Shown piece by piece: positions 25,409 through 64,000 of a DNA stretch of 64,000 bases. Numbering within the stretch: the first letter of the stretch is position 1; each line of letters starts with the position of its first letter. The stretch is from Elusimicrobiota bacterium (lineage in GTDB: Bacteria; Elusimicrobiota; Elusimicrobia; UBA1565; UBA9628): positions 1-64,000 of the forward strand of contig PLZD01000009.1 of assembly GCA_003151975.1 (NCBI GenBank), in the 5' to 3' direction. The notes beneath the pieces are model-generated. The model had not been told where the DNA came from. It searched no databases and was given only the letters and a program-made list of their open reading frames with translations. Both the position numbers and the translations under genes were made by a program.

Positions 25409-25409
25409 G

Positions 25410-28400
25410 ATGAGAGCGCGCGGCTTGAAGGCGTTGCTGATCGCGGCGGCCCTGACGGTCGGGGCCGCGCAAAGCGCGCGCGCGGCCTGCGGCACGACAA
25501 AGTTCATCACGAACACGGCGGGCGCCATCCAGAACGCCGTCAATGCGATCGGTGGAGGGCCGCTGGCCTCCGACTACTGCATCTTCCTCGCGACCGGCGC
25601 GTACATAGAGGCCGTCACCGTCCAGAAGATCGCGACGGGGGGATTTCGCATCGTCATCTCGACGTATAACCCCGGCGTCGCCGGCAACACGCAGGTCACG
25701 CCGCTCTTCGGCAACGCGGCCTTCACGCTCATCAACGACAGCGTCACGCTCAACGGCATGACGATCTACCCGTCCGCGACCGGACCCCAATACGGCATCA
25801 CCTCCTCCTCGGCCAACGTCGTGATCTCCAGCGTCATCGTCAACGAGCAGGCCGGCTCGACCTTCGGCAGCGGCGCGATCGTCATCAGCAGCTATACGAC
25901 GATCACCCTGTCGAGCATGACCGCGTCCACCGTGACCTCCCTGGACATCAACGGCTCCTCCAACACGATCTCGCAAAGCACGTTCACCTCGACCTCCGGA
26001 AATTACGCGGTCCTCCTCAATCCCGGCTCCAACGACAATGTCCTGCAGCAAAGCGTCTTTTCCATCGTGGGCAGCGGCGCGGCCGCCATCGCGGGCAGCA
26101 GCAACACCTTCAGCCAGGACATCTTCACGAACAACTCGGTTGGGTTTACCACCGTGCAATTGCTCCCGACGGCGAGCTCCAACACGATTAGGCTGAGCTC
26201 CCTGACGAACGTCGCCGGGACCGTCATCAGCTTCATCGGCGGCGCGAGCGCCAACAACTTGGGTCCCGCGATCATCAGCAACGGCGGCGGCGGCCTCGGC
26301 GTCGATATCGACGGCTCGCCCGGGAACTCCCTCACGGGGCTCAAGGTCACGTGCGGCGCCGGCGGCGGGCCGGCGTTGATCGTCCAGAACGGCTCCCACT
26401 TGACCAGCGTTCAGACTTCGACTTTCAACGCCATCGGCGCCGCCGCTACGGTCTCGTTGACCGGCGTGTCGAGCGTGACCATCACGCAGAGCTCCATCGG
26501 GAATTTCGGCACCGGCTCGGCGCTGGCCGTCGGCGGCCTCGGCGCCAGCTACAACGCCGTCAGCTTGACGACGATGACGGCGACGGGACCGAGCGCGGCG
26601 CTCGTGATCAATTTCGTGGACGGCCATGAGACTTTCGTTCAGGACTACATGAGCAACCAGTCGGGTCTGGCGGGCGCGGTGCAGATCCTTGGGAATTCCT
26701 CGAGCGAGACGATCACGCAGAGCCGGATCGCGGCCAACGCGATCAACTTCCCGGCCCTCTACATGCAGGGCGTCGCGAACAACGCGATCATCCAGACGAT
26801 CGTGACCAACGCGCTCAGCACCGCGGCCTGGCTCGATACCAACGCCAACGGCAACACGATCCAACAGAGCACGTTCACCTCGGGCTTCCCCGGCGTCGTC
26901 GACCTAGGCAATCCGGGCATCTACATGAACCAAAGCTCGACGAACACGATCATCCAGAGCGTCCTCGAGGGCGGACTCGGGCGCAGCAACGCGGCCTCGG
27001 CTTACCAGTCGGGCGCCGGACTCTTGGTCGTCGGTGGCACCTCGAACACGGTCGTCGCGTCCTCCCTGATCGGCGGCGTGGGCGGCAACGCCAACACGCC
27101 CGGCGGAGACGGCCTGACCGTCGTCGGGGGCTCGTCGGTCGCCGTCAGCTGGAGCACCTTGGCCGGCGGCGCGGGCAATTCCGGCGGCGGCCCGCTGGGC
27201 GGCGGCTTCGGCGGAAGCGGCGTCAACATCAGCGGCGGCAACAATTTCACGGTCGCGAACAGCTCGATCACGGGCGGCACGGGGGCGGCCGCCACTCTCG
27301 GCGCCAACGGCGGCAACGGCGGCCAGGGCGTCATCCTGCAGGGCGGCGCCAGCTTCGTCTCGATCGCGCAAAGCGGCATCTTCGCCGGCTCGGGCGGCGC
27401 GGGCTCGCCGGGTGCTGGCATCGGCGGCGGCGGCGGCAACGGCTACGCGGACGTCGGCGCGATGTGGGGCCTCGTCACGAACAGCTTCATGTACGGCGGC
27501 ACGGGCGGCGTCGGCACCGCGGGCGGACCGGGCGGAGCGGGCGGCTCGGGCGCGCTGATCAATTGCGGCCAGCAATGCGCCCAGAACACGATCATTCAAA
27601 GCACGATGACGAGCGCCCTTGGCGCCGCCGGCTCCTCGCACGGCGCCGATGGGCAAGGCCTGCAGATTTTCGGCTCGTCGGGGACCACGGTCACGCAGAG
27701 CTACATGTCCAACGGGGGAACGATCAATCCGGGCGCCGCGCTTCAGCTTCTTCATTATTCGACGAATACCTTCATTTCCCAAAGCACCATGTCGGTCATC
27801 AACGGCGGCGAGTTCGCCGCCTTCGTCGACGTCGGCAACAGCACGATCACCGCCAGCGTCATGCTGAGCCCGCTGGGGACCGCGGCGCGTTTTGGCCCCA
27901 ACGCCTTGGGCAGCGGCGTGACGGCGTCGCTGGTCGCGGGCGCGACCGGCTTCTACATCAACGGCGCGACGGGGACCTTCATCGTCAATGACAACATTAG
28001 AGGCACAGCCGCCCTCTCCGAGGCATTGTTGATCGATGGCGGCATAGGCGTTACCTTTATAGGGAACAGTTCCATGACCGCGACGGGCCTTGGCGGCTAC
28101 GCTCTGCTGGGAGGAGGCTTCTCGGGTCCGATCACGGCGACGGGTCCCGATGTGTTCCGCGGCAAGGTGGCTCTCAACGGCAACGTCTTCCAGCCCGGGA
28201 ACTTCATCCAGCAGTTCGGGGGAGACTTCATCCTCCCGAATATCGCCAACTGGCTTCCGCAGACGAGCACCGCCGTCTTCGACGGCAGCAACGACGTCCC
28301 GGCGATCACATATCAGCAGATCATCGCGCCGACGGGGATCAACTTCAACGGCTTCGCGGTCAACGTGACGAGCGTGCAGTTCTTCGGCAGCGGGGGAAAT

Positions 28401-31400
28401 ACCGCCGTGTTCACGGACAACTTCGCGGGCTCCACCGTCACCTTCCCGGCGGGCGGCGTCATCTATTCTTTCGGCGACTTCGAGATCCACGGCGGGCCGC
28501 CGCCCCTGGGCTTCGTCAACCTGCGTTCGAGCCTGCCGGGCACTCAATGGGAGATGGCCCTGCAGGCCGTTTCGAGCGTGACGGCGGCCAGCGTCAGCGA
28601 TTCCAACGCCTCCTTCGGCATCACCGTGCAGGCCAACGACCAAACCTCGGTCGGCACTTTCAACAACAACACGAACTGGAACTTCCTGCCGTTCTTGGCG
28701 GTCACCTTGCCGGGCCAGGTCTACAACAACGGCGTCGGCAACGTCGGCCCGATCAATCCGCAAACGGCGGGCGTGCCGTTCACGGCCAGCGTCTACGCCG
28801 TGTCCTCGAGCTCCCACATCGTCACCACCGCGGCCTTCCCGTTGGTGCTCAACTCGACCGACGTTTACGGTACGCCCTCAATCGCCGCCGGCCTCACCCA
28901 GACCTTGGTCAACGGCACGACCAACTTCTCAGTCACCCTGCGCACCGCCGAGCCCTCGCCGCATCCGACGCAGATCACAGCTACGCCCTCGATCGCCTTC
29001 GCCGGCTTCGGGCAGGGCTTCGGCATCGTCAACGTCTCGCCCAACGCCTACACCAACCTTCAGGTCCTGCTGCCCGGCGAGGCCACCGACCCCGGCTCTC
29101 CGACGGGCAAGGCGCCGGTCCCGCCGGACGTGCAGGTCCAAGCGGTGCCCATTTCCGCCGTCACGGTGCGCTCGGTGGACCAGTTCTTCAACCTCGAGTC
29201 GGCGTCTCCGGCGCATCCGATCCTGATCCTCGGCACGAGCGCGTCGTCCTCGTCTTGGCCCTCGGCGCCGCAGGCGACCGTGGGAGGCATGACGGCGTTT
29301 GTCAGCACCGTGACGATTTTCTCGACCGGGACCTTCGTGACGATCACCTCGTCGGACAACGCCAGCGGCGTGGCCAACGGGGTCAGCTCGCCGTTCATCG
29401 TGGCTCTGCCGAGCTTCTCCTCGCCCACGGCGAGCTTGAGCTTCGCCAATTCCTACGTGGCGACGCTCGCGGGAAGCCTCAACGGAGGCGCCGCCGACGC
29501 GACGGCCGTCAACAAGGTCCTCATCGGCGTGCAGGACCAGCGCACCCTTCAGTTCCTCAATCGCTGGCCGGCGGCGGGCGGCACGTTCACGAACCCGGGC
29601 GTGGTCTACGGCACCGCCACGCTGAGCGCTCAAGGCCAGCAGGGCTCGGGCTGGACGATCCCGTTCCCCGACTTCATCCTCACGAACAAGGATACATATC
29701 TGGTCACCATGGTCCCGATCGACGCGAGCCTCAACAGCAAGGTGTACGTCGCTTCGTTCACTTTCGAGCCGGGCATACTCGCGGGCGGCGGAGCGGGCGG
29801 GTTCGGCGCCGCCAGCGTCCTGCCGGTCATCTCCAGCGGCTGCGAGATCGTCATCACGACGGTCACCTTCACCGTGGGCGCGGGAGGCATCCAGCCGGGC
29901 GGGGCCGTCGCCGTGCACGAGCCGGAAGGCTGGCTGACCCCGCTGGGCGTCGCGGGCCTCAACCCTCCGCCCGTCGGCTTCGTCCATGTCGCGGCCTCTA
30001 ACGCGCCCGCCCTGGCCGCCAGCGCCGTCACGGTCAATGCCTCGTCGCAGAGCCTGGTGACCTTGGGCCCCGGCTGGATCACGGTTGTGCCCAACGCCGT
30101 CGCCTTCAACCCGGGAGACCAGATCATCTTCACCTACGCGGGCATCCCGGCCCTGAACTCGACGGGCAGAGGCCCTCAAATCTTCACGGTCCTCAGCCAG
30201 CCCGTCTCGGGCGCTCCGTTGTCGGCCGTCGTTCCCTCGCCGCTGATGACGCTCAGCGCGGGGACCACCAATTTTATCCGCTTCGCCGATATCACTCAGA
30301 TGCAGATGGGCTCCCTGCAGAGCTCGCCGACGATGCAGCTCGAGCTCACGGATCTCTGCGGCAATCCCACGTCGATCAGCGTTTCGACGGCGGCCTTCGT
30401 CTTCGCCGTGAACCCCGCCGCCGGATCCGATATCGACGCCAGCGCGATCGTCTACGCCGCCGGAGGCAACGCCATCTCGTCGGTGACCTTCGCGGCCAAC
30501 GCCGCGCTGTCCCAGCCGTTCTACTACCAGACCTCGACGGCCGGCGTCGCCGCGGAACTCCTCACCGCGAGCGGCACCTTCAGCGGCGTCGTGCCTAACT
30601 CCTCGTTTGTCTCGCAGTCGGTGAGAGCGGCCTCGCTGCTTGCCTCGACGCTGACGGTGACCGGCGTTTCGATCGACACCGGCACTCCCAACCCCGGCCA
30701 AACCGTCGCGACGGTGGTCTACGGCATCCCGCACACGCCGGCGGTCCTGCGCTTCAATTCCAATTTCGCCGGGGTCCCGTGGGCGGTCACCATCTCGACG
30801 GACCCGGTGGCGTTCTACCCGGCGGTCTTCCGGGCGGCGGGGGTCACCGACCTGACCAGGCCGCCGAGCGTCTCTTGGGACGGGCTCAACAGCCAGGCCT
30901 TGCTGACCAGCTACGTCTCGCCGTCGACCTACTACGCGCTCATCTCGCTGGCCAACGGCGTCGCGCAGGACACCTCCCTGCAGATCAAGATACCCGCCTC
31001 GCCCTTCATTTACGGCAACTTGGGGGTCGCCGGCGCCGGATCTCTGGTCAAGGCCCAGGGTCCGGGAGGCGGGTTCGGAAACCAGGCGCAGGCGTCGGCG
31101 ACCGGGTACTTCCAGATTTTCGGCCTCGTGGACCAGACTCCCTACGACATCACCGCGACGACGGGCGTCTTCGTCTCCAGCCAAAACGTGTCGATCTCGG
31201 CGGCGGCTCCGGGGATCGTCGCGGCCAACGCGGGCACGGCGATCCCGGGCACGATGAGCTTCCCGCCGACCTCGTTCATCTACGTGAGCGCGACGCTGGC
31301 CACCCCCGCTCCGCGCGACATGTCGGGGGTGGTCTCGGTCCACAACGCGAGCTACACGGTGACCGCCCGCGGCAACCTGCACTTCTTCGCCGGCTTCACG

Positions 31401-34400
31401 AGTTCCGACAACGGGGCGCTCGACTTCAGCCAAACGGCGAGCTCCTGGACCATTCTGGCGCTGCCGCCGGACCTCTACTCGCTCGACGTGAGCATCCCGG
31501 CGCTCGCCATCACGACGTCCGTCGCCGGCGTCTCGTTGGCCCCCGGCGCGATCGCCGCCGTGCCGATCGTCTTGACGAAAAAGACCAACGTCTTCGGCTA
31601 TGCCGTCCTGCCGTCAACCTCGTCATTGGGCCATGAAATTTCGATTTCCGCCCAGGCGCTCGGCGCCCTGAATCCCACGGTGTTCGCCAAGGCCTTCGTT
31701 TCGCCCGCGAGCGCCTTGGTCCGGCCCACGAGCGGGACTTACTCGCTCTACGGCCTCGACCCGGGCTCTTGGACCATCAACGCGCAGTCGCAAGGCTTCG
31801 CCTCCACTCAAACGACGGTGCTGGTCTCGACGGGCGGCATAGACATCGGCGACCCGTTCTTCCTCACGCAGGGCCTCGACCTCCATCTCTCCACGGGCGG
31901 CGTGATCGTGGGGACGATCACCATCGTGGGCAACACCATGACTTACGACGCGATCCCGCCCTGCGGCGCGCACTTGTATCCGTTGGGCATTCAAGCCGTC
32001 GATCCCGTCACCGGCGTCACGGTCAACGCGCCTCCGCTGTGCATGCCGATCAGCCCGACCTCGGCTTCGAGCTCGTTCACGATCACGGGCGTTTCCGCCG
32101 GCACCTACACTCTGACCGCGGCGGCACTCTTCGGCGTGCCCTTGCCGGCGGCGGGCGGGGGCATTGTGTCGGTCACGCCGCCGGTGGTGCAGTTCACGAG
32201 TTTCACCGCCGTGCTCAGCCCAGCTCAAATGGCGATCAACATACAGATCCCGCCTTTGCCCGGCGGCGTCTGTCATTCCACGGGCGACTTCAGGGCCGTA
32301 GGAATCCAGGTCCCCTCGGACGCCTTCGATCCCGCATTCGCGTTCGCCGATGTCACGTTGCTGACGCAGACCGAGATCAGCCCGACGGTATACACGGACG
32401 GAACTGGAATGCAGCTCGAGCAGTACTTCTGCTCGAGCATGACTTGGACCAAACCCAACCTCTATCAAGGCGGGGTCGCCAGGTTCGGGGCGTTCTATAA
32501 TCCGACCGGCGCCAGCGCCTTCTCCTCGGTCTCGGTGATCCCGGGAGGAAGCACCACCGTCAACCTGAATCTCAACGTCGCGACCTTCACCGTCAGCGGC
32601 CAAGCCTCGATGATCGGCTCGGTGAACCTCGTGGCGGCCACCGTCGGGACCGCCATCATCCCGCCGACCTTCTACACGGTCACCGTGAGCTCCATCCCGG
32701 GCCTGATCTCGGCCTCGACGCCGGTGGCCTACTGCCTGCTGTCCTCGACGATGCCGCAGATCGTGAGCACCTTGCACCTCGAGCTTATCCCTCTCGACCC
32801 CGCGGCGCTTGGCAGCGCCCCGCCCTTCTACAAGCCTTTCCCCGGCGCGCCCTGCAACGGGTGGGCGGCCTTCAATGGCCCGCTCTCATTCACGGGCTAT
32901 GTGGCCGCGATCCAGCCGGACGGCTCCTTCCAGTTCCCGGGCGTGACCGCGGGCGACTACCTTCTGCGCAACGATCCCGACCTCGAGAACCACCCGTCCA
33001 ACGGCGTCGAGCTGGCCGCCTACCAGACCGTCCTTCACGTCACCAACGCCACGACGGGCATCGCCGTGCCGTTGGGCCGGGGCAATTCGATCTCGGGGGT
33101 CGTGAATTTGCCGCCCGGCATGACCACGAGCGCCCCGATCATGGTTCTGCTCCAGGATTCTCACGGCAGCACGGTCTCAATCTCGCGCACGAGCTTCAAC
33201 AACGCCAACGGCGCGGCCTACGAGTTCAGCTCCGTCGCCGACGGTCAATACGCCTTGATCGCGCAGGCCCCGAACTTCGCCGCGCGGCCTGTGACGGTCG
33301 CGATGGCCGGCGCCTCCCTGACCGGCCAGAACATCGCTCTGCAGCCGAGCGGGACGATCAAGGCGACCATCGGCGTGCAGTCCCTGACGCCCGGCGGGAC
33401 GAGCCAGTTCACCGTCATCAATCAGGCCAATCAGTCCCTCCTGCCCTCCGCGCTGTACATGGACGCCGTGGCCAACCCTTGGTACCAAGGCGGCATCTTC
33501 TATGCCGACGCTCCCTCCTGTCCGCCGCCGTTGGGCTGTTTGGGAGGCTCGGCGCAGGCGGGACTCAGCTTCGACCCGAACGGCCAAGCCGTCATCCACA
33601 ACGTCCTGCCGGGCACCTACAACGTGGAGTTCAACGTCGGCGCCCTGCTTTCGGGCAACGGCACCTTGGGTCTGGTCTCGACGGTCAAGTCCGGCGTCAC
33701 CGTGTCCGCGGGGCAGACCGTCGACCTCGGGGTGATCGCGATCCTCGGAGGGTCGAACCTCTCGGGCGTCGTCACGGACGCGGCCACCAGCTCTCCGGCG
33801 CCCAACGTCCAGATGGTCGCCCGGCCCTCCGCGGCCCTGCCCGGGCAGACCGGCGCCCGCAACGCCTATCCGAGCGTCACGACCGACGCCCAAGGCCGCT
33901 ACTCCTTCACCGGCCTCGATCCCACGGTGCGCTTTTACGACATCTTCGCCGGCGCTCGCTTGAGCGGCCATCAAGGCGACATCATCTCCGCTTACGATCA
34001 GACCATCGCGCCCTCGGTGGACATCCAGAGCACTCCCACGCTCAACTTCGCGCTGGCCGAGGCGCCCTACTCGGTCTCGGGCCAGATCGTCAGCCAGAAC
34101 AACGAACTGCTTCAAAGCGGCTTCGGGCAGGATCAGGGCACGACGCCGGGTGCCGCCATCTTCCTGCAGAAGTCGGGCAAGGTGCCCACCGCCAATCCTC
34201 TGGCCGACATCGTGTTCTTCACCGACCAGCAAGGCAACTTCACGATCCCAAGCCTGACGGCGGGCACCTATTCCATGATCGTCATGGCGCAGGGCTACGC
34301 CAACGCCAAGCAGACTGTCGTGATCACGACTGCATCCATCGGCCTCGGTCCGATCGCGCTCAATTCCGGCGCGACGCTGACGGGTTCGATCTACAAGCCC

Positions 34401-35912
34401 GACGGCTCCTCGCCCGGGGAGGACGAGATCGGCTGGGTCATCGGCGCCACGCCCTCGATGTCGGACTTCATTTACGGCGCCGCCACCCTGCAGCCCAACA
34501 CGCTTTCGGTGTCCGGCTACCGGATGAGCGGCTTCCAGTTGAACACGCCTTACCGCCTGATCTTCATGAGCAGCGACGGCCAGCAGCTCGTGTCGCCGCC
34601 CGAGGCCTCCAACATCGTCTTCACCAGCAGCGTCCAGGTCCAGCAGCGCGACATAATCTTCAGGCCTTCGAAGCCCTTCGTGGTGGCCAAAGACCGCCGC
34701 GTGGGCGGCACCTTCAACCTCGTGTTCCAGCTGAGCCAGCCGCTGCGCGAAAGAACGGCCGCCGACGACGACTTCTCGGCGATCCTCACAACGGTCAGCG
34801 CCCAGGGCATTCTCTCGAACATCGCCCTCTTCAACAACCGCCAGACCATGACCGCCGTCTATACGCCCGGCGTCAATGAATCCAGCTTCACGCTGAGCTT
34901 CAAGGGCTATACATCGATCAGGGATCCCGATTCAATCGACCCGGTCAATCCGGAGTTCGTGATCGTCTCAACACCCTCTTTCTTCGTCGGGATCGACGGT
35001 GCGCACAAGGCCAACGTCAACAACCTCTCGGGCGGCGTCCTGGTCGTCGAGGGCGATCAGGCGCGCGTGAATCTTCCCAAAGGCGCCTTCGGCGTGGACG
35101 CCTCTTCCGCGGTGACCGTCCTCTTTCAGAAGCTCAACGCCATCATCAACACGAGCGGCGAGCAGAGCACGCTGGGCGTGGCCGCCTCCAACGTCCGGTC
35201 TCTGGCCTACCCCGCCAGCGCTTATCCCGCGCACATGATCCAGGCCATCGCGGCCGTGCCGCAGACCGTCAACCCGTTTTCCGCCTTCTACGACATCCTG
35301 CTGCCTCTGGGTCTGCGCACGGCCTTGTCTCGACCGACGCCGATGACGATCAGTTATTCGACGGGGACCGACCCGACGACTTTGAATCTTTACTGGTACA
35401 ACGCGGCGGCCAACGCCTACATCCTCCAGCAAGACGTGACCGGCGCGCCGCCCGTGATCGACACGGTCAACCACACCATCACGATCAACGTCAACCACTT
35501 CTCGACCTTCGTCCTCTTCAACACGGGCGTCGAGGTCATCACCGGCAACGCCTTCCCGGGCACGGACATCACGGTCTACAACTTCCCCAATCCCTTCGAC
35601 CTCAACGCGAAGAACGTCTTCGCCATCCACGGCGGCTCGTGCGCGGCCGGCGGCGGCTGCACCGTGCGCGGGACCATGATCAGCATCGCGGTCCCTCCCG
35701 GCGTCAGCGGCGACGGGACGATCCGCATTTATAACGTCGCGGGCGAGCGCGTGCGGCAGATCGACCTCGGCAATGTCACGGGCGGCAACTACCTTTATCA
35801 GGATTGGGACGGGCGCAACAACACCGGCTCCGACGTGGCCAGCGGCGTGTACATCGGGCAGGTCAAGATCGGCGATCATGCGAAGTTCTTCAAGATGGCC
35901 CTGATCAAATGA
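25410..35912 (+). CDS. Giant secreted protein: beta-helix, Ig-like repeats, FlgD-like C-terminal domain
   Basis: A 3,500-residue exported protein, start chosen at the ATG one base after the barrel gene; its signal peptide is residues 1-25 (ending SARA). Residues about 40-950 are beta-helix repeats (recurring SNTI-Q-ST-T units), with a Gly-rich stretch near 550-720. The middle has Ig-like and carboxypeptidase-regulatory-like repeats, for example YSLYGLDPGSWTINAQSQGF near 2110 and DAQGRYSFTGLDPT near 2830. The last 110 residues contain IRIYNVAGERVRQIDL and DWDGRNNTGSDVASGVYIG, an FlgD-Ig-like domain resembling type IX secretion sorting domains. Likely a surface adhesin or matrix protein; the sorting role is inferred. 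Confidence 0.85.
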   Translation: MRARGLKALLIAAALTVGAAQSARAACGTTKFITNTAGAIQNAVNAIGGGPLASDYCIFLATGAYIEAVTVQKIATGGFRIVISTYNPGVAGNTQVTPLFGNAAFTLINDSVTLNGMTIYPSATGPQYGITSSSANVVISSVIVNEQAGSTFGSGAIVISSYTTITLSSMTASTVTSLDINGSSNTISQSTFTSTSGNYAVLLNPGSNDNVLQQSVFSIVGSGAAAIAGSSNTFSQDIFTNNSVGFTTVQLLPTASSNTIRLSSLTNVAGTVISFIGGASANNLGPAIISNGGGGLGVDIDGSPGNSLTGLKVTCGAGGGPALIVQNGSHLTSVQTSTFNAIGAAATVSLTGVSSVTITQSSIGNFGTGSALAVGGLGASYNAVSLTTMTATGPSAALVINFVDGHETFVQDYMSNQSGLAGAVQILGNSSSETITQSRIAANAINFPALYMQGVANNAIIQTIVTNALSTAAWLDTNANGNTIQQSTFTSGFPGVVDLGNPGIYMNQSSTNTIIQSVLEGGLGRSNAASAYQSGAGLLVVGGTSNTVVASSLIGGVGGNANTPGGDGLTVVGGSSVAVSWSTLAGGAGNSGGGPLGGGFGGSGVNISGGNNFTVANSSITGGTGAAATLGANGGNGGQGVILQGGASFVSIAQSGIFAGSGGAGSPGAGIGGGGGNGYADVGAMWGLVTNSFMYGGTGGVGTAGGPGGAGGSGALINCGQQCAQNTIIQSTMTSALGAAGSSHGADGQGLQIFGSSGTTVTQSYMSNGGTINPGAALQLLHYSTNTFISQSTMSVINGGEFAAFVDVGNSTITASVMLSPLGTAARFGPNALGSGVTASLVAGATGFYINGATGTFIVNDNIRGTAALSEALLIDGGIGVTFIGNSSMTATGLGGYALLGGGFSGPITATGPDVFRGKVALNGNVFQPGNFIQQFGGDFILPNIANWLPQTSTAVFDGSNDVPAITYQQIIAPTGINFNGFAVNVTSVQFFGSGGNTAVFTDNFAGSTVTFPAGGVIYSFGDFEIHGGPPPLGFVNLRSSLPGTQWEMALQAVSSVTAASVSDSNASFGITVQANDQTSVGTFNNNTNWNFLPFLAVTLPGQVYNNGVGNVGPINPQTAGVPFTASVYAVSSSSHIVTTAAFPLVLNSTDVYGTPSIAAGLTQTLVNGTTNFSVTLRTAEPSPHPTQITATPSIAFAGFGQGFGIVNVSPNAYTNLQVLLPGEATDPGSPTGKAPVPPDVQVQAVPISAVTVRSVDQFFNLESASPAHPILILGTSASSSSWPSAPQATVGGMTAFVSTVTIFSTGTFVTITSSDNASGVANGVSSPFIVALPSFSSPTASLSFANSYVATLAGSLNGGAADATAVNKVLIGVQDQRTLQFLNRWPAAGGTFTNPGVVYGTATLSAQGQQGSGWTIPFPDFILTNKDTYLVTMVPIDASLNSKVYVASFTFEPGILAGGGAGGFGAASVLPVISSGCEIVITTVTFTVGAGGIQPGGAVAVHEPEGWLTPLGVAGLNPPPVGFVHVAASNAPALAASAVTVNASSQSLVTLGPGWITVVPNAVAFNPGDQIIFTYAGIPALNSTGRGPQIFTVLSQPVSGAPLSAVVPSPLMTLSAGTTNFIRFADITQMQMGSLQSSPTMQLELTDLCGNPTSISVSTAAFVFAVNPAAGSDIDASAIVYAAGGNAISSVTFAANAALSQPFYYQTSTAGVAAELLTASGTFSGVVPNSSFVSQSVRAASLLASTLTVTGVSIDTGTPNPGQTVATVVYGIPHTPAVLRFNSNFAGVPWAVTISTDPVAFYPAVFRAAGVTDLTRPPSVSWDGLNSQALLTSYVSPSTYYALISLANGVAQDTSLQIKIPASPFIYGNLGVAGAGSLVKAQGPGGGFGNQAQASATGYFQIFGLVDQTPYDITATTGVFVSSQNVSISAAAPGIVAANAGTAIPGTMSFPPTSFIYVSATLATPAPRDMSGVVSVHNASYTVTARGNLHFFAGFTSSDNGALDFSQTASSWTILALPPDLYSLDVSIPALAITTSVAGVSLAPGAIAAVPIVLTKKTNVFGYAVLPSTSSLGHEISISAQALGALNPTVFAKAFVSPASALVRPTSGTYSLYGLDPGSWTINAQSQGFASTQTTVLVSTGGIDIGDPFFLTQGLDLHLSTGGVIVGTITIVGNTMTYDAIPPCGAHLYPLGIQAVDPVTGVTVNAPPLCMPISPTSASSSFTITGVSAGTYTLTAAALFGVPLPAAGGGIVSVTPPVVQFTSFTAVLSPAQMAINIQIPPLPGGVCHSTGDFRAVGIQVPSDAFDPAFAFADVTLLTQTEISPTVYTDGTGMQLEQYFCSSMTWTKPNLYQGGVARFGAFYNPTGASAFSSVSVIPGGSTTVNLNLNVATFTVSGQASMIGSVNLVAATVGTAIIPPTFYTVTVSSIPGLISASTPVAYCLLSSTMPQIVSTLHLELIPLDPAALGSAPPFYKPFPGAPCNGWAAFNGPLSFTGYVAAIQPDGSFQFPGVTAGDYLLRNDPDLENHPSNGVELAAYQTVLHVTNATTGIAVPLGRGNSISGVVNLPPGMTTSAPIMVLLQDSHGSTVSISRTSFNNANGAAYEFSSVADGQYALIAQAPNFAARPVTVAMAGASLTGQNIALQPSGTIKATIGVQSLTPGGTSQFTVINQANQSLLPSALYMDAVANPWYQGGIFYADAPSCPPPLGCLGGSAQAGLSFDPNGQAVIHNVLPGTYNVEFNVGALLSGNGTLGLVSTVKSGVTVSAGQTVDLGVIAILGGSNLSGVVTDAATSSPAPNVQMVARPSAALPGQTGARNAYPSVTTDAQGRYSFTGLDPTVRFYDIFAGARLSGHQGDIISAYDQTIAPSVDIQSTPTLNFALAEAPYSVSGQIVSQNNELLQSGFGQDQGTTPGAAIFLQKSGKVPTANPLADIVFFTDQQGNFTIPSLTAGTYSMIVMAQGYANAKQTVVITTASIGLGPIALNSGATLTGSIYKPDGSSPGEDEIGWVIGATPSMSDFIYGAATLQPNTLSVSGYRMSGFQLNTPYRLIFMSSDGQQLVSPPEASNIVFTSSVQVQQRDIIFRPSKPFVVAKDRRVGGTFNLVFQLSQPLRERTAADDDFSAILTTVSAQGILSNIALFNNRQTMTAVYTPGVNESSFTLSFKGYTSIRDPDSIDPVNPEFVIVSTPSFFVGIDGAHKANVNNLSGGVLVVEGDQARVNLPKGAFGVDASSAVTVLFQKLNAIINTSGEQSTLGVAASNVRSLAYPASAYPAHMIQAIAAVPQTVNPFSAFYDILLPLGLRTALSRPTPMTISYSTGTDPTTLNLYWYNAAANAYILQQDVTGAPPVIDTVNHTITINVNHFSTFVLFNTGVEVITGNAFPGTDITVYNFPNPFDLNAKNVFAIHGGSCAAGGGCTVRGTMISIAVPPGVSGDGTIRIYNVAGERVRQIDLGNVTGGNYLYQDWDGRNNTGSDVASGVYIGQVKIGDHAKFFKMALIK

Positions 35913-51143: not shown

Positions 51144-52336
<1,193 letters not shown>

Positions 52337-52340
<4 letters not shown>

Positions 52341-55813: not shown

Positions 55814-56716
55814 ATGAGTCTATTACGCCAGATTCAAGATGATGCGGTAGACTCTTCCAAGCCGCTGGGCGACCTCCTAAGAAAGTGCCGCGTATTAGCA
55901 TATCGGCTCGGGCACGAAGAGTTTAAGGAGTGGGTCGAGTTCGAACTAAACGGCTACCCAGACGAGAAAGACACCCCTCCGTATCGAGTCGCACACGCAG
56001 AATCTTACGGTGATTTCTCTGGACCTTTCCAATCGGGGCTTCGCAATGCGCCGATTCCTCCCTCGAATGTGCCAGAGAAATTCAGAGAGATTGCCACAAC
56101 TGTCTATTTCAGGGAAAGCATTTCTGCCCTCGAAGACTTGGTTAAGGACAAAAAGGGCGGGACTCTTCGCTCCGCATTCCCCGGCGATCTCGTCCCGCTC
56201 CTCAAGGTGTATGAGCACATGAACTGCCTATCAGCTTGGCGGCAAATCGCCCCTGGCTCAGTGATTTCGATCTTAGACAATGTGCGCAACAGAGTGTTGA
56301 ATTTTTCCTTAGAGATTGAGGCGAAAGCTCCTGCTGCGGGCGAGGCCAAGCCTGGTGAGCATCCTGTGCCAAAGGACAGTATTAATCAGATTTTCAACAT
56401 GGTCGTATATGGCGGCACAGTGGCTGCGGGCAGTCATCATTTCACTCAGTCGTCTATAACAGAAATAAAGCAGGGTGATATCGATTCGCTCGTGAAATTC
56501 TTGGAATCCCAGGGAATCTCTAAGGAGGATTCGAAACAGCTTGTTGAAGCGGTGAAGGAAGATCCGCCTCCGAAAGACGCGAGTCACTTGGGGTCTCGAG
56601 TCAGCAGTTGGATGGGACGCATGATAGCGAAAACCGCTAGCGGTGCCTGGAAGATTGCCACGGAGGAAGGCGCGAAGATTCTCATGGAAGCGGTAAAGCG
56701 GCATTACGGGCTATAG
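55814..56716 (+). CDS. AbiTii-domain protein, probable phage-defence component
   Basis: A 300-residue soluble protein. Residues 1-190 match the AbiTii pattern: SLLRQIQDDAVDSSKPLGDLLRKCRVLAYRLGHEEFKEWVEFELNGYP at the start, then a region with VPEKFREIA and YFRESISALEDLVK. The C-terminal third is a variable region with TQSSITEIKQGDIDSLVKFLESQG. AbiTii proteins are linked to abortive phage defence, with mechanism not well defined. Base composition is clearly AT-richer than the genes before it, marking the start of an acquired island. Confidence 0.72.
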   Translation: MSLLRQIQDDAVDSSKPLGDLLRKCRVLAYRLGHEEFKEWVEFELNGYPDEKDTPPYRVAHAESYGDFSGPFQSGLRNAPIPPSNVPEKFREIATTVYFRESISALEDLVKDKKGGTLRSAFPGDLVPLLKVYEHMNCLSAWRQIAPGSVISILDNVRNRVLNFSLEIEAKAPAAGEAKPGEHPVPKDSINQIFNMVVYGGTVAAGSHHFTQSSITEIKQGDIDSLVKFLESQGISKEDSKQLVEAVKEDPPPKDASHLGSRVSSWMGRMIAKTASGAWKIATEEGAKILMEAVKRHYGL

Positions 56717-59083: not shown

Positions 59084-60019
59084 ATGCCGACGCTTTTGTC
59101 ACTCGACTCATCCCTCGCCCGCGTCCGTTCCGGCCTCGAAACCCGCGCCCGCCGCATCGAAGGCCGTGTCGGCCAGGAGCTCGCGAGCCATGTCGGCAGA
59201 CCCGGCAAGATGCTCAGAGCTCGCTTCTGCCTGCTCCTGGGCCAGGCGCTGGGCGCTAAACCCGAAAAAGCCGAAGGCGCTGCCCGCGCCATGGAACTGG
59301 TGCACAACGCCAGCCTGCTCCACGACGACTGCGTGGACTCCGCTGATACCCGCAGAGGCGTCCCGACCCCGAACGCCGTCTACGGCACGACCGTGGCCCT
59401 GCTTCTCGGCGATCTCGCCTTTTCACAAGGTCTAGAAGAAGCCGTCGATATTTCACCCAGCGCTCCGCGCCTGCTCGTCACGGCCGTCAGAGAGATGACC
59501 GTCGGCGAACTGCAGGAAGAATTCCTCAAGGGCTCTACTGATATTTCGATTGAAGCCTACATGGGTGTCGCCGCGCGCAAAACCGGCGCGCTCTTTGAGT
59601 GGTCGGGCTCGGTTCTGTCTGAATTATCTCCGTTCCCGCACGAAGACTCCGACCCGCCGCGCCTGGCGTGCGCCGCCGGCATTTTGCTTCAAATCGTCGA
59701 CGACATCCACGACTACACGCTCTCCGAAAATGTCACCGGCAAGCCTCAGGCCCAGGACATGATCAACCGCCGGCTGACTCTGCCCTGCATACTCGCTTTG
59801 CACTCCCCTAAGCGCGCCCAGTTCCTGGAACTCTGGGAGAAGAACGACGCTCAGGGCATCTCAACCTTCCTCAACGACAGCGGCTTCATAAAGGAAACGA
59901 GAAAGAAGGGCCGCGAGCTCGTCGACTCGATGCTCTCGCTCTGCACCAAGCTCCCCTGCAAAGCCGAAGCCAAGGAGCTCTCGAACTTCGTCGAGCTCAT
60001 GGCGAAGAGGGAGTTCTAG
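59084..60019 (+). CDS. Polyprenyl diphosphate synthase (trans-isoprenyl type)
   Basis: A 311-residue cytosolic enzyme that condenses isopentenyl diphosphate with allylic diphosphates. The first Asp-rich motif is D81-D82-C-V-D85 and the second is D206-D207-I-H-D210, the Mg2+ sites. GRPGKMLRARF and DTRRGVPTPN are substrate-site blocks. Residues just before the first motif (Ala76, Ser77) are small, which usually allows a chain longer than C15. As first gene of the peptide/radical SAM operon it would supply the prenyl chain for the UbiA-type enzyme. Only 1 base separates it from the next gene. Confidence 0.88.
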   Translation: MPTLLSLDSSLARVRSGLETRARRIEGRVGQELASHVGRPGKMLRARFCLLLGQALGAKPEKAEGAARAMELVHNASLLHDDCVDSADTRRGVPTPNAVYGTTVALLLGDLAFSQGLEEAVDISPSAPRLLVTAVREMTVGELQEEFLKGSTDISIEAYMGVAARKTGALFEWSGSVLSELSPFPHEDSDPPRLACAAGILLQIVDDIHDYTLSENVTGKPQAQDMINRRLTLPCILALHSPKRAQFLELWEKNDAQGISTFLNDSGFIKETRKKGRELVDSMLSLCTKLPCKAEAKELSNFVELMAKREF

Positions 60020-60020
60020 G

Positions 60021-60461
60021 ATGTCGTACTTCGCTCTTTTAAAAACCGCTTGGAAGTCCGGACAATTCCGCATCACCGACTCTGCCGCATCGGAAAAGGA
60101 TGCCGATCCGGCGCTCAGCCGCGCTCGCGTCCAGAAGGAAATCGAAGAAATCATCGAAAGAGAAGCCGGCGACGCGGTTTACTGCCTCAACGTCGCCCGG
60201 GAGGGAATCATGAAGCTCGCTCCATTCGTGAAGTTCCGTGAAGAGAAGTTCGGCGCCGTCTTGTTCGAGACGCGCTCCGAGAAGGTCTACACGCTGTCGC
60301 CTACGGGTGCTGCCGTGGTCCGCGAGGTCATCGCGGGGGCCGACTCCAAGTCCCTCATCGACAACCTCAAGATCAAGTACGAAGACAAGACCGGCAAGAT
60401 GGAGAAGGAAGCCGTCGACTTTCTCGCGTCGCTCAAAGAAAAAGGCCTCGTCACGGAGTAG
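60021..60461 (+). CDS. PqqD-type RiPP recognition protein with N-terminal extension
   Basis: A 146-residue protein. The C-terminal 75 residues fit the PqqD winged-helix fold: FREEKFGAVLFETRSEKVYTLSPTGAAVVREVIAG, then a helix ending FLASLKEKGLV. PqqD-type domains bind the leader of a precursor peptide and present it to a radical SAM enzyme. The first 65 residues form a charged helical extension unlike PqqD, possibly a docking segment. AGGGAG precedes the ATG. It is followed by a radical SAM gene after 3 bases. Confidence 0.8.
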   Translation: MSYFALLKTAWKSGQFRITDSAASEKDADPALSRARVQKEIEEIIEREAGDAVYCLNVAREGIMKLAPFVKFREEKFGAVLFETRSEKVYTLSPTGAAVVREVIAGADSKSLIDNLKIKYEDKTGKMEKEAVDFLASLKEKGLVTE

Positions 60462-60464
60462 ACC

Positions 60465-61430
60465 ATGCAAACCGCGGTAAAGTCCGAGGACGCCGCCTCG
60501 GAGGACTTGGGCGCGCCTTTATATGTCGCCTGGCAGATCACCAACGAGTGCAACCTCGCGTGCCTGCATTGCATCGAGGAGAGCGGCCCGGGCAAGGCGT
60601 TTAAAGACGAGCTGTCGACCGAAGAAGCTCTTTCCATCATAGACCAGCTGGTCAAGTCCGAAGTGCCCTATGTCTCGTTCTCTGGCGGCGAACCGATGGT
60701 TCGCCCGGACTTCTTTCAGATGGTCGAGCGCATCACGGCCGGCGGAGTCGGTCTAAAGATCGAAACCAACGGCCACTACCTGACGCCCGAGAACTGCAAA
60801 CGGCTTAAGGATTTGAACGTGAAGGCGGTTCAGGTGTCCATCGACGGCGCCACCCCCGCGTCATTCAACAAGATGCGCGTTCATGGGCGCTTTGATACGG
60901 CCATCGACGGCATCAAGCGGCTGGGCGACGCCGGCATTCCGATCGAGATCAACTTCGTCCCGGCCAAGTTCAACATCTTCGAGATCGGGGAGGCCGTCGA
61001 TCTAGCCCATCGCTTGGGCGCGTACAGCTTTTACACGGGCAAGATCATGTACACGGGCAACGCCGTGCGCACTTGGTCGATCACCGCGCCCGCCGAGACC
61101 GACTACCCGAAGTTCTTCGAGACTTTGCACGCCAAGTCAAAAGAATACGAAGGCAAGATGCGCGTGTACTTCCACGAGATGGGCCTGCTGGAAGAACTGC
61201 GCTACCGGATCATCAACCCCGCGGCTTTGTTCATCATCTTGCCCAACGGCAAGGTGAAGCTCATCAACGCCCTGCCCTTCATCTGCGGCGATTTGCGCAC
61301 GCAGAAGCTGGGCCAGGTTTGGGCCAACTTCCAGACCGCCTGGAAGGATCCTCGGGTCGCCCAGTTCATCGACAAGCTCGCCGAGGACCCCAATACCGTG
61401 TCCCAGCTTCACAAATGGGTGGAAGTCTGA
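60465..61430 (+). CDS. Radical SAM enzyme 1 (SPASM-like, lacks the usual auxiliary cysteines)
   Basis: A 321-residue radical SAM protein with C29-N-L-A-C33-L-H-C36 for the 4Fe-4S cluster, then SFSGGEPMVRPDFF and KAVQVSIDGATPASFNKMR. The C-terminal 80 residues look like a SPASM/twitch remnant: ILPNGKVKLINALPFICGDL and a GQVW-like end, with only one Cys there, so the normal auxiliary clusters cannot form. Such enzymes form carbon-carbon or other cross-links in RiPPs. It is coupled to the UbiA gene by a 16-base overlap. GGAG precedes its ATG. Confidence 0.85.
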   Translation: MQTAVKSEDAASEDLGAPLYVAWQITNECNLACLHCIEESGPGKAFKDELSTEEALSIIDQLVKSEVPYVSFSGGEPMVRPDFFQMVERITAGGVGLKIETNGHYLTPENCKRLKDLNVKAVQVSIDGATPASFNKMRVHGRFDTAIDGIKRLGDAGIPIEINFVPAKFNIFEIGEAVDLAHRLGAYSFYTGKIMYTGNAVRTWSITAPAETDYPKFFETLHAKSKEYEGKMRVYFHEMGLLEELRYRIINPAALFIILPNGKVKLINALPFICGDLRTQKLGQVWANFQTAWKDPRVAQFIDKLAEDPNTVSQLHKWVEV

Positions 61431-62362
61431 AGACCAACGCCGTCATCCCCGACATGCTGAAGGCGCCGCACGCGCCGGAGGATCAGCACCTCGTCCTCAA
61501 GATCGCCTCCGTCGTGCGCTACCGCTTTTTCTTGTATGCGGGGCTGCTGCCGTATTTTCTTGGCGCGGCGTATGCGTACGGGATCGAGAAGACTTTCCGG
61601 CCCGGGGTCTTCTGGCTTGGCCTCTTGGGCATCTTCCTGTCCGTAGTCGGAGTTGAGAGCTTCAACGAGTACTTCGATGCGAAGATGGGGACGGACCGGG
61701 TGTTCAATCCAAGCGACGACGAATATATCCCGGAATGGATGTTCAAGCTTGGCGTCTGCGCCTTTGGCGCAGCCGCCGCAATCGGCCTGCTTCTGGCAAA
61801 GGAAGGCGGATGGCCGATTGTCGCGTACACCCTGCTCGGCGGGGCGGCGGCGGTTTGGTATGTGGGACCGCCGGTGCGTTGGGTCTATCGCGGGTTGGGA
61901 GAACTGGTTATTGGGCTATCCTACGGGCCGTGGATGACTCTTGGAAGCTTGCAGCTCCACACGCATCGCTTTTCTTCCGGAGCGCTGCTCGCTTCGCTCG
62001 TCCCCGGGCTGCTCATTATGGCACTGGCTGTCGTGAACAACATCCCCGACTTCCACCAGGACCGATTGGTGGGCAAGCGCAATCTCGTCGTGCGCCTCGG
62101 CCGCCACAACGGCGTCTATCTGTATCTCGCTCTGGCTTCCGCCGGCCTCATCATCGCCGCCGCAGGCTCCATCATCGGCGTTTTCCCGCGCGCCTCTCTC
62201 CTCTGCCCCATCGCCGGGCTCCCGCTTCTTTTTCTTAGCGCCAAGGCTGCCTGGACGACCTGGGACACGCCGCGCAAATTCGTGCCCGCGGTCAAGTTCA
62301 TCGTGATGTGCTACGCGCTCTCCACGACCGTCTTCGCGCTTTCCATGCTGGCGGGCAAATGA
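61415..62362 (+). CDS. UbiA-family prenyltransferase, MenA-like
   Basis: A 315-residue membrane protein with about eight or nine helices. The first Asp-rich motif is N84-E-Y-F-D88-A-K-M-G-T-D94 and the second NNIPDFHQDRLVGKRNLVVRLG. Both follow MenA, which prenylates dihydroxynaphthoate, more closely than UbiA proper. The acceptor here is probably different, because no other menaquinone gene is present in the window. The start at 61415 overlaps the radical SAM gene; an ATG at 61454 is an alternative. Its stop overlaps the next start (ATGA). Confidence 0.85.
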   Translation: MGGSLKTNAVIPDMLKAPHAPEDQHLVLKIASVVRYRFFLYAGLLPYFLGAAYAYGIEKTFRPGVFWLGLLGIFLSVVGVESFNEYFDAKMGTDRVFNPSDDEYIPEWMFKLGVCAFGAAAAIGLLLAKEGGWPIVAYTLLGGAAAVWYVGPPVRWVYRGLGELVIGLSYGPWMTLGSLQLHTHRFSSGALLASLVPGLLIMALAVVNNIPDFHQDRLVGKRNLVVRLGRHNGVYLYLALASAGLIIAAAGSIIGVFPRASLLCPIAGLPLLFLSAKAAWTTWDTPRKFVPAVKFIVMCYALSTTVFALSMLAGK

Positions 62363-63297
62363 AGATCGACTCTCTATCGACGCCGGCGATGATCACCTGG
62401 CAGGTCACGCGCGACTGCGACCTGGCCTGTCTGCATTGCTGCACGGACTCCGCTCCAGGCAAGGCTCTTCCCGGCGAGCTCGATCGCGAAGAGGCCCTCG
62501 AGCTCGCGGACCAAATCATCGAGGCTCAGGTTCCTTATGTCATGCTGGTGGGGGGAGAGCCGACGATCGCGCCGTACTTCTTCGAGCTCGCTCAGAAGCT
62601 GGCCGACGGCGGCGTTCTGCTCAAGATCGAGACCAACGGCAACAAGTTCGGCGACGCTCAGGCCGCCAAGCTGCCCAAAGAGGCGATCCGCTCGCTCCAA
62701 ATCTCCATCGACGGCGCCACCCAGGCGGTGTATTCCAAGCAACGCCCCGGCGGAGCACTCGGGAAGGCCAAGAACGCCGCCCGCGCGGGCGGCGCGGCCG
62801 GCCTGCCGCTCGAAATCACATTCGCTCCGTCGAGGATCAACATCCACGAAGCCGAGGCCGTCATCGACCTCGCCCTCGAATTGGGCGCTTTCCGCTTCAA
62901 CACCGGCCGCCTGATGCGTCTGGGCACGGCCGCCAAGCTCTGGGATAAGCTTTGCCCCGATGGAAACGAGTACGAGATATTTTATAATCTGCTTGTCCGG
63001 AAAGAAGCCGAGCTTGCCGGCAAGATGGAGCTCTGCTTCCGGCCGTTCTCTTTGAAAGAGGAACTCGAGTCTAGGACCACCGAGCCCTCCGCGACGCTGT
63101 TGGTCCTGCCGGACGGCAAGGTGAAGGTCGCAGCGCCCTTGCCGTACCTGTGCGCCGATTTGAAGAAGCAAAGCCTGCGCGAGGCTTGGGACGCGTATCG
63201 CGAAGCGTGGAAGCACCCGAAGGTCGTCGCGGGGCTTAAAGAGTTCGCGGCGAACGAAGAGCGGCTGGCCGAGGCCAACCGCTGGGTCATGCTCTAA
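62359..63297 (+). CDS. Radical SAM enzyme 2 (paralogue, SPASM-like, Cys-poor)
   Basis: A 312-residue radical SAM protein, C20-D-L-A-C24-L-H-C27, then LVGGEPTIAPYFF and SLQISIDGATQAV. The C-terminal region ending with VLPDGKVKVAAPLPYLCADL and AWDAYREAW parallels enzyme 1, again with a single Cys. It is clearly a paralogue of enzymes 1 and 3 but diverged, so each probably performs a different step. Coupled by overlap to the UbiA gene. A hairpin and the peptide gene follow. Confidence 0.85.
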   Translation: MKIDSLSTPAMITWQVTRDCDLACLHCCTDSAPGKALPGELDREEALELADQIIEAQVPYVMLVGGEPTIAPYFFELAQKLADGGVLLKIETNGNKFGDAQAAKLPKEAIRSLQISIDGATQAVYSKQRPGGALGKAKNAARAGGAAGLPLEITFAPSRINIHEAEAVIDLALELGAFRFNTGRLMRLGTAAKLWDKLCPDGNEYEIFYNLLVRKEAELAGKMELCFRPFSLKEELESRTTEPSATLLVLPDGKVKVAAPLPYLCADLKKQSLREAWDAYREAWKHPKVVAGLKEFAANEERLAEANRWVML

Positions 63298-63304
63298 AAA
63301 GATT

Positions 63305-63327
63305 TGCAGGTCGTGGTCTGACCTGCA
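63305..63327 (+). promoter_or_regulatory. Stem-loop between radical SAM gene and peptide gene
   Basis: A perfect 8-bp stem TGCAGGTC/GACCTGCA with a 7-base loop. There is no T-run, so it is not a classical terminator. It may protect the 3' end of a processed transcript and let the downstream peptide be made in excess. A strong AAGGAG then lies 6 bases before the peptide ATG. Confidence 0.6.
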
Positions 63328-63360
63328 GTACGGTACGGTACCGACCAGAAGGAGAATCAA

Positions 63361-63477
63361 ATGAACGACCAGAAGACCGTGGCCGATGCAAAGGCCGCCA
63401 AGCTCGACTGGGAGACCCCTTGTCTTGAGGAAGTCTCCGAGCGCGTGATGGCTCAGCCTTACATTCGGTTCACCTGA
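63361..63477 (+). CDS. Putative RiPP precursor peptide (PqqA-like)
   Basis: A 38-residue peptide with an excellent AAGGAG site. The N-terminal half is charged leader-like sequence. Then W17-E-T-P20-C-L22, a W/Y-x2-P-x-L pattern recognised by PqqD-type domains in lasso peptides and related RiPPs, then EEVSERVM and the end AQPYIRFT. Tyr34 lies 17 residues after Trp17, the same W-to-Y distance as in PqqA, and Pro20 also matches. The PqqA Glu four before the Tyr is Met30 here. Its stop shares a base with the next start (TGATG). Precursor identity is inferred from context. Confidence 0.72.
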   Translation: MNDQKTVADAKAAKLDWETPCLEEVSERVMAQPYIRFT

Positions 63478-64000
63478 TGCAAGGGAGGGGGGCGTCCGTG
63501 GGCGACTACGGCGCCCCCCTCTTTCTTGCGTGGCAGCTGACCAATAAGTGCACGGGTTCCTGCCTCCACTGCTGCGAAGAGAGCGGGCCTGACAAGGCCT
63601 GGAAGGACGAGCTCTCGCGCTCCCAAGCTCTCAATTTAGCCCGCCAGATCGCGGACATGGGCATCGCCTATGTCGCCTTCGGCGGCGGCGAGCCGATGGA
63701 GTGCCCGCATGTGTTCCAGATCTTCGAGATCTTGGCCGCGGGCGGGGTTGAGATCAAGATCGAGACCAACGGCCTTGCGATCGACGACCGGGTCGCGAAC
63801 AAATTAAAAGCTTTGAACGTCGCGTGCGTTCAGATTTCTATCGATGGGGCCGCCGCCGGGACACATGAAAAACTTCGGCCGGGTTCCGGTTACCAGCCCG
63901 CGCTCGACGCGATCGACAGACTCGCCGATCGCGGGCTGGAACCGGAATTGGTTTTTATTCCGACGAAAATTAACGTGTCCGAGGCCGCCAACGTATACGA
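63477..64000 (+). CDS. Radical SAM enzyme 3 (partial, cut by window edge)
   Basis: The first 174 codons of a gene that runs off the right edge. C25-T-G-S-C29-L-H-C32 is the cluster motif, followed by FGGGEPMECPHVF and VQISIDGAAAGTHEKLR. It is a third paralogue of the two radical SAM enzymes upstream, most similar to enzyme 1 near the start (GAPLFLAWQLTNKC versus GAPLYVAWQITNEC). It is translated with the precursor peptide through a TGATG overlap. Its C-terminus cannot be judged. Confidence 0.85.
   Translation, partial: MQGRGASVGDYGAPLFLAWQLTNKCTGSCLHCCEESGPDKAWKDELSRSQALNLARQIADMGIAYVAFGGGEPMECPHVFQIFEILAAGGVEIKIETNGLAIDDRVANKLKALNVACVQISIDGAAAGTHEKLRPGSGYQPALDAIDRLADRGLEPELVFIPTKINVSEAANVY

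Follow-up and report, generated by a model that had tools for sequence, protein, structure and literature searches.

To our knowledge, respiratory quinones are made by routes in which chorismate or small molecules of the tyrosine type supply the head group, and no known pathway to such a quinone starts from a peptide. PQQ and mycofactocin, cofactors derived from ribosomally synthesized and post-translationally modified peptides (RiPPs), are made with PqqD-like proteins and radical SAM (S-adenosylmethionine) enzymes. The window analyzed here, the whole 64,000-nucleotide stretch of an Elusimicrobiota bacterium contig (PLZD01000009.1), contains at positions 59084-64000 of the forward strand a cassette that combines RiPP and isoprenoid enzymes: in order, genes for a polyprenyl-diphosphate synthase (PPS), a PqqD-type protein, radical SAM enzyme 1 (rSAM1), a UbiA-family prenyltransferase, radical SAM enzyme 2 (rSAM2), a 38-aa peptide and radical SAM enzyme 3 (rSAM3). 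With moderate confidence, we read this cassette as a pathway from a ribosomal peptide to a membrane lipoquinone, probably of the menaquinone type. Such a route falls outside all the quinone and RiPP-cofactor pathways known to us, and a literature search returned nothing relevant on the peptide sequence or on a peptide-derived quinone (preprints and most subscription journals were outside its scope).

The genes that, judged by sequence, travel together are those for the precursor peptide, the PqqD-type protein, one to three radical SAM enzymes, the MenA-like prenyltransferase and, in hosts that require it, PPS. The cassette is present in 47 of 97 related genomes (carriers were called from the union of PqqD matches and a peptide DNA pattern, the reversed pattern giving 0 matches as a control), and the order PPS-PqqD-rSAM1-UbiA-rSAM2-peptide-rSAM3 is retained across relatives at the levels of family and order; because the same order recurs so widely, the cassette is not a chance assembly. 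The gene order and the peptide, whose conservation the initial annotation of the window had left to be checked, are thus both conserved in relatives, and the set is found across phyla. In relatives the cassette ends with a complete rSAM3, and the genes beyond it are not conserved. QPYIRFT followed by a stop codon was matched 107 times in a scan covering 84,980 species, 101 of the matches being judged genuine peptides and six (L131, L136, L138, L156, L213 and L217) dropped as chance; since the pattern fixes QPYIRFT, variants with other cores would escape it. The genuine peptides occur in Elusimicrobiota, Omnitrophota, Planctomycetota, Lentisphaerae, alpha-, beta- and gammaproteobacteria, and one 'Deltaproteobacteria' metagenome-assembled genome. 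Some carriers are in culture: named isolates with the peptide include Rhodopila globiformis DSM 161, Rhodothalassium salexigens DSM 2132 and Rhodovibrio sodomensis DSM 9895, and it is also encoded in the closed genome of Betaproteobacteria bacterium GR16-43; the genomes titled 'Bordetella parapertussis' (L123) and 'Ktedonobacter' (L154) are metagenome bins, and these names are not relied on.

Two layouts were distinguished: type A (Elusimicrobia and Proteobacteria), with the gene order of the window, and the minimal type B (mainly Omnitrophota, Planctomycetota and Lentisphaerae), with the four or five genes peptide-PqqD-one rSAM-UbiA(-PPS). The peptide has UbiA as a neighbour in 55 of the 56 loci with enough sequence (35/36 in type A, 20/20 in type B), and close homologues of this UbiA were found exclusively where peptide or radical SAM genes occur, which supports the proposal of the initial annotation that the RiPP and isoprenoid modules form one undescribed pathway. 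The type B form of the peptide also occurs in some Elusimicrobia (L127 and L148), so that both layouts exist within one phylum. A single Burkholderiales contig (JADGRP010000208) has two peptide loci (L137 and L225), the second without UbiA in the stretch examined, and genus g17 (L052 and L053) has an additional PPS-PqqD pair, divergent and followed by a response-regulator gene, with neither radical SAM nor peptide genes.

The precursor peptide (MNDQKTVADAKAAKLDWETPCLEEVSERVMAQPYIRFT, positions 63361-63477) is conserved at 34 loci that were found through the PqqD neighbourhood, independently of the peptide pattern. Its last ten residues, VMAQPYIRFT (63445-63474), are identical in 34/34 peptides beside PqqD while the codons vary synonymously; therefore, selection acts on the protein. 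The consensus of the 101 genuine peptides is W..P.LE(D/E)VS..(V/I)MAQPYIRFT, and this conserved short open reading frame, with a leader, a core and adjoining modifying enzymes, is a putative RiPP precursor. The leader reads WxxPx[LIM]EEV in relatives, and in the window the motif WETPCLEEV (63409-63435), of the form WxxPx[LIM]E[DE]V, is the putative PqqD-binding site. The PqqD-type protein itself (60021-60461, 146 aa; PF05402, E=7.8e-9, 36 bits versus a cut-off of 23) consists of an N-terminal helical extension and a PqqD domain at residues ~65-146. Its AF2 model is of moderate confidence (pLDDT 75.7) and finds its best fold matches in the PDB among lasso-peptide B1 proteins bound to leader peptides (5v1v and 6jx3, TMt 0.79-0.80); by this model, the protein is predicted to be a recognition protein of the lasso-RRE (RiPP recognition element), winged-helix fold. 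Lasso-peptide leaders have the consensus YxxPxL, which the leader WxxPxL resembles, in agreement with the match to leader-bound B1 proteins.

All three radical SAM enzymes match PF04055 above its cut-off, with E-values of the order of 1e-16 to 1e-26, and conserve CxxxCxxC: rSAM1 (60465-61430, E=8.9e-26), rSAM2 (62353-63297, alternative start 62359, E=7.7e-16) and the 5' part of rSAM3 (63477-64000, possible start 63498, E=9.6e-23), which is truncated by the window edge at 64000 on a contig that runs on to 199 kb. The conserved cysteine columns of the cassette enzymes do not include the SPASM set, so they are not SPASM maturases by this measure; there is a lone conserved C-terminal cysteine in rSAM1 (PFxCGDL) and in the type B enzyme, and none in rSAM3. 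The closest NCBIfam models are AhbD and MftC, both below their cut-offs, and the neighbours in structure databases are SkfB, cytosylglucuronate decarboxylase and PqqE. In a FastTree phylogeny, rSAM2 forms its own clade (support 1.0), and the single enzyme of the minimal cassettes groups with rSAM3 as a sister clade, which fits an origin of type A by duplication; the root of the tree is uncertain.

The prenyltransferase (61424-62362; PF01040, E=6.8e-18, 65 bits versus a cut-off of 34) conserves both Asp-rich motifs (FNEYFDAKMGTDR and NNIPDFHQDRLVGKRNLVVRLGR). Its top NCBIfam matches are dihydroxynaphthoate polyprenyltransferases of the MenA type, with scores under the equivalog cut-off (96 versus 264 bits, and 64 versus 102 for TIGR00751), and its sole sequence match in the PDB is UBIAD1 (E 5e-4). 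Many carriers possess just two UbiA proteins, the cassette protein and another next to COX1. In a closed genome (CP096137.1), for example, the latter is located in a cytochrome oxidase cluster, a position that marks it as a heme O synthase, which leaves the cassette protein as the candidate enzyme if such carriers make a lipoquinone via the UbiA family. PPS (59084-60019; PF00348, E=1.3e-42) has intact LLHDDCVD and QIVDDIHD motifs. It is the first gene of type A loci outside the Proteobacteria and is carried by nearly all non-proteobacterial loci, and it is lacking in 9/9 proteobacterial loci whose upstream sequence is available, an absence that fits hosts already making a ubiquinone chain, as the proteobacterial hosts should. 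PPS is the only dispensable member of the set; apart from it, the isoprenoid component was not encountered without radical SAM or peptide neighbours, an arrangement that the initial annotation had named as evidence against a joint pathway.

In Planctomycetota, Omnitrophota and Lentisphaeria, the minimal form of the cassette lies directly downstream of, or inside, genes for an NQR-type NADH:quinone oxidoreductase, and the peptide follows such an operon in 9/27 type B loci with upstream sequence; an additional locus (L202) has the arrangement UbiA-nqrF. In one Lentisphaeria bin, the gene orders PPS-nqrABCDE-peptide and peptide-PqqD-rSAM-UbiA-nqrF are found on two contigs, which suggests that the cassette is located inside the NQR operon there. 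NqrD scores above its NCBIfam cut-off, and NqrA, B, E and F are closest to their models at scores slightly to clearly below theirs. An NqrF in another locus (L151) was not counted as NQR, being a hydrogenase-type flavoprotein by context. Among the 47 carrier relatives, NuoH of complex I is near universal and COX1 is common; these organisms are respirers.

By the markers tested, carriers lack both known menaquinone pathways. MqnC is found in 0/47 carrier relatives versus 20/50 non-carriers (Fisher 2e-7, a value that overstates independence because the exclusion is clustered by family), MqnA/D is absent from the same 47 save for one distant 33-bit protein, and 0/23 carriers of other groups have MqnA/D above the cut-off. 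MenD is above its cut-off in none of these carriers, whether relatives or the 23 others (MenB/C/E/F were not searched). The initial annotation had allowed that complete menaquinone genes might appear just past the edge of the window; none do so in relatives, and the window's own genome lacks MenD, MqnA/D and MqnC by curated cut-off. Rhodopila and Rhodovibrio carry the cassette, and MqnA/D and MenD were not found in the genomes searched. R. salexigens is listed with MK-10 (menaquinone-10). R. globiformis makes MK-9, UQ-9 (ubiquinone-9) and rhodoquinone (PMC12542754), and MK-10 is reported alongside Q-10 for Rhodovibrio, which sets this genus apart from the others of its family (PMC7179689, PMC11316597). 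The equal chain lengths of MK-9 and UQ-9, and of MK-10 and Q-10, fit the absence of PPS in Proteobacteria.

We infer the origin of the head group, the donor residue, the proteolysis and the final structure as follows. The PqqD-type protein would bind the WxxPxLEEV leader and present the peptide to the radical SAM enzymes, which would convert the invariant core, MAQPYIRFT, to an aromatic head group, Tyr34 or Phe37 being the likely ring donors and one radical SAM enzyme apparently sufficing in the minimal form. A host protease would release the head group, UbiA would attach the polyprenyl chain, and the quinone would work with complex I, the oxidase chain and the NQR-type NADH dehydrogenase, taking the place of what the Men and futalosine (Mqn) routes make from chorismate. 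A more specific version, tentative and in our estimation somewhat doubtful, has the radical SAM enzymes carve the naphthoquinone ring from MAQPYIRFT, which would make the cassette a third way of producing menaquinone (vitamin K2) itself, shared by Elusimicrobiota, Omnitrophota, Planctomycetota, Lentisphaerae and some of the purple bacteria. A peptide-derived lipoquinone would link the study of RiPP cofactors with that of respiratory quinones, and would explain menaquinone in cultured purple bacteria where no marker of a known pathway was found. It would also be an answer to the question, raised by a 2026 survey, of why many lineages seem to be without quinone genes (PMC13386864).

Several points, besides the family clustering of the Mqn exclusion, weigh against a peptide-derived lipoquinone. 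It is supported by gene linkage, motifs, folds and distribution; neither a product nor an intermediate nor an activity of the enzymes has been observed, and no detailed chemistry from MAQPYIRFT to a naphthoquinone is on offer. The set includes no conserved peptidase, and no leader peptidase or hydroxylase; NQR subunits other than NqrD are under the NCBIfam cut-offs. The Men and Mqn pathways were judged by markers alone (MenD; MqnA/D; MqnC in relatives only), and the menaquinone reports are old chemotaxonomy, in which the MK-10 entries concern R. salinarum and the genus as a whole rather than R. sodomensis. One genome (G078) has the cassette plus the distant single MqnA-like protein (33 bits), without MqnC. 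Finally, 29/97 relatives have neither the cassette nor Mqn genes, and COX1 is above its cut-off in 15 of these 29, six of which (G001-G004, G017 and G057) have NuoH too; some of the 29 are small genomes without an oxidase. Such cassette-free respirers may use a further unknown route or import quinone. They weaken the argument from absence for carriers, and do not weaken the evidence of linkage and NQR. It was observed separately that complex I and cytochrome oxidase matches occur without cassette or Mqn/Men marker in G001, G002, G003, G017, G050, G057, G066 and others, that several cassette-free respirers have one UbiA only, beside COX1, and that the MqnA-like protein (PF02621, about 33-35 bits) adjoins a lyase-like gene in G078 and G057 (L232 and L233), both without MqnC. 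The G078 protein was rejected as a sign of a full futalosine route, being common to cassette-free sister genomes.

The initial annotation had left open a lipoquinone-like or a membrane-anchored product. Three findings favour the lipoquinone: the cassette is co-located with NQR-type operons, Mqn genes are excluded, and menaquinone has been reported in cultured carriers. The other branch survives as a rival in which the modified peptide is itself prenylated and acts, uncut, as a membrane-anchored lipopeptide electron carrier or cofactor beside the NQR-type dehydrogenase. The want of a conserved peptidase suits this rival, as does the invariance of the whole 9-10 residue core, where one or two fixed residues would be expected if a single residue were excised, but MenA, which UbiA resembles, acts on small aromatic acids, and menaquinone in carriers without known pathway markers would be left unexplained; we consider the lipopeptide unlikely. 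It is likewise improbable that the quinone made by UbiA and PPS owes its head group to an unrecognized chorismate-type route, with the peptide and radical SAM enzymes making a separate cofactor or acting as a scaffold. Undetected routes may exist in the group, as is indicated by those relatives that possess complex I and COX1 in the absence of both the cassette and any known pathway, yet UbiA keeps its place beside the peptide in two gene orders and five groups, and no second set of head-group genes is conserved beside the cassette.

Two further explanations have much less to commend them. A PqqD-type protein, a radical SAM enzyme and a short peptide are a common RiPP layout, as would suit a conventional natural product (signal or antimicrobial) that is incidentally prenylated and unrelated to respiration; this is very improbable for a core that is invariant over several phyla in the manner of a cofactor, in a set with no exporter or immunity gene in the neighbourhoods of relatives and other loci, located within or behind NQR-type operons and exclusive of Mqn genes. 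The MenA-like character of UbiA could also be taken to mean that ordinary menaquinone genes (MenA and a chain synthase) happen to adjoin an unrelated RiPP cluster, an idea that we regard as hardly tenable, since it is already contradicted by the failure to find MenD and Mqn genes in carriers and by linkage conserved across phyla.

Within the window, the seven genes are tightly packed, nearly all joined, as first described, by overlaps or gaps of 1-3 bases: every open reading frame was recovered in place and the Pfam families were confirmed. The first genes are spaced by 1 and 3 bp and the next ones overlap slightly, and the single larger gap, 63 bp before the peptide, contains an RNA hairpin (GCAGGTC-GTGGTCT-GACCTGC, 63305-63327) and a strong Shine-Dalgarno sequence (AAGGAG, 63349-63354). 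Similar hairpins with paired changes are found in same-family genomes (e.g., GCCGGTC..GACCGGC and GCCGGCT..AGTCGGC), and the hairpin between rSAM2 and the peptide perhaps sets peptide dosage within the operon. Upstream of PPS, at a distance of 14-24 bp, seven loci (L038, L039, L041, L042, L059, L061 and L074) have a gene for a MarR/GbsR-like regulator (153-175 aa; family assigned by eye). A glycine C-acetyltransferase-like gene adjoins PPS in same-family genomes (e.g., L040, L044, L062, L167 and L185) and lies in the window at 51144-52340, ~6.7 kb from PPS; its presence upstream of PPS (16 loci, comprising 11 genomes plus duplicates) was set aside as lineage-specific context rather than a role in the pathway. 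Between the upstream genes and the cassette, the window contains an AbiTii-type abortive-infection gene (55814-56716; PF18864, E 9e-49), possibly an insertion, and at 25302-35912 there is a very large, repeat-rich, surface-type open reading frame (3536 aa).

Each member of the cassette is below the cut-off of every NCBIfam model (June 2026). The cassette is like PQQ biosynthesis (PqqA-E) in that a ribosomal precursor, a PqqD chaperone and the radical SAM enzyme PqqE lead to a redox quinone, but it lacks PqqA, PqqB, PqqC and the SPASM cysteines, adds a MenA-like prenyltransferase and a chain synthase, and falls below the cut-offs of all Pqq models (19 bits versus 46 for PqqD, 84 versus 381 for PqqE). 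With mycofactocin (MftA-F) it shares MftC as one of the two closest radical SAM families, a PqqD-like protein (MftB), a short peptide with an invariant C-terminus and, by the reading favoured here, the role of an electron carrier; unlike mycofactocin, whose peptide ends in VY, its core ends in PYIRFT, MftD/E/F are missing, prenylation apparently replaces glycosylation, and the scores are below cut-off (142 bits versus 265 for MftC, 23 versus 33 for MftB). The recognition elements of lasso peptides (TbiB1 and FusB1) resemble the PqqD-type protein in fold and in the type of leader motif, but there is no lasso cyclase or leader protease in the cassette, and the score is 36 versus a cut-off of 70. 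The Men and futalosine pathways likewise have a MenA-like prenyltransferase and polyprenyl-diphosphate synthase in organisms with quinone-using complexes; the carriers differ in having no MenD, MqnA/D or MqnC by markers and a head group that is apparently peptide-derived. UBIAD1 (menaquinone-4 synthase), the only solved structure with a sequence match to UbiA, is an animal enzyme of remote similarity. The methyl-plastoquinone pathway of Nitrospirota (cited in PMC13386864), built from enzymes of the ubiquinone, plastoquinone and menaquinone types with no peptide, is a precedent for new quinones hidden in lineages without known pathways.

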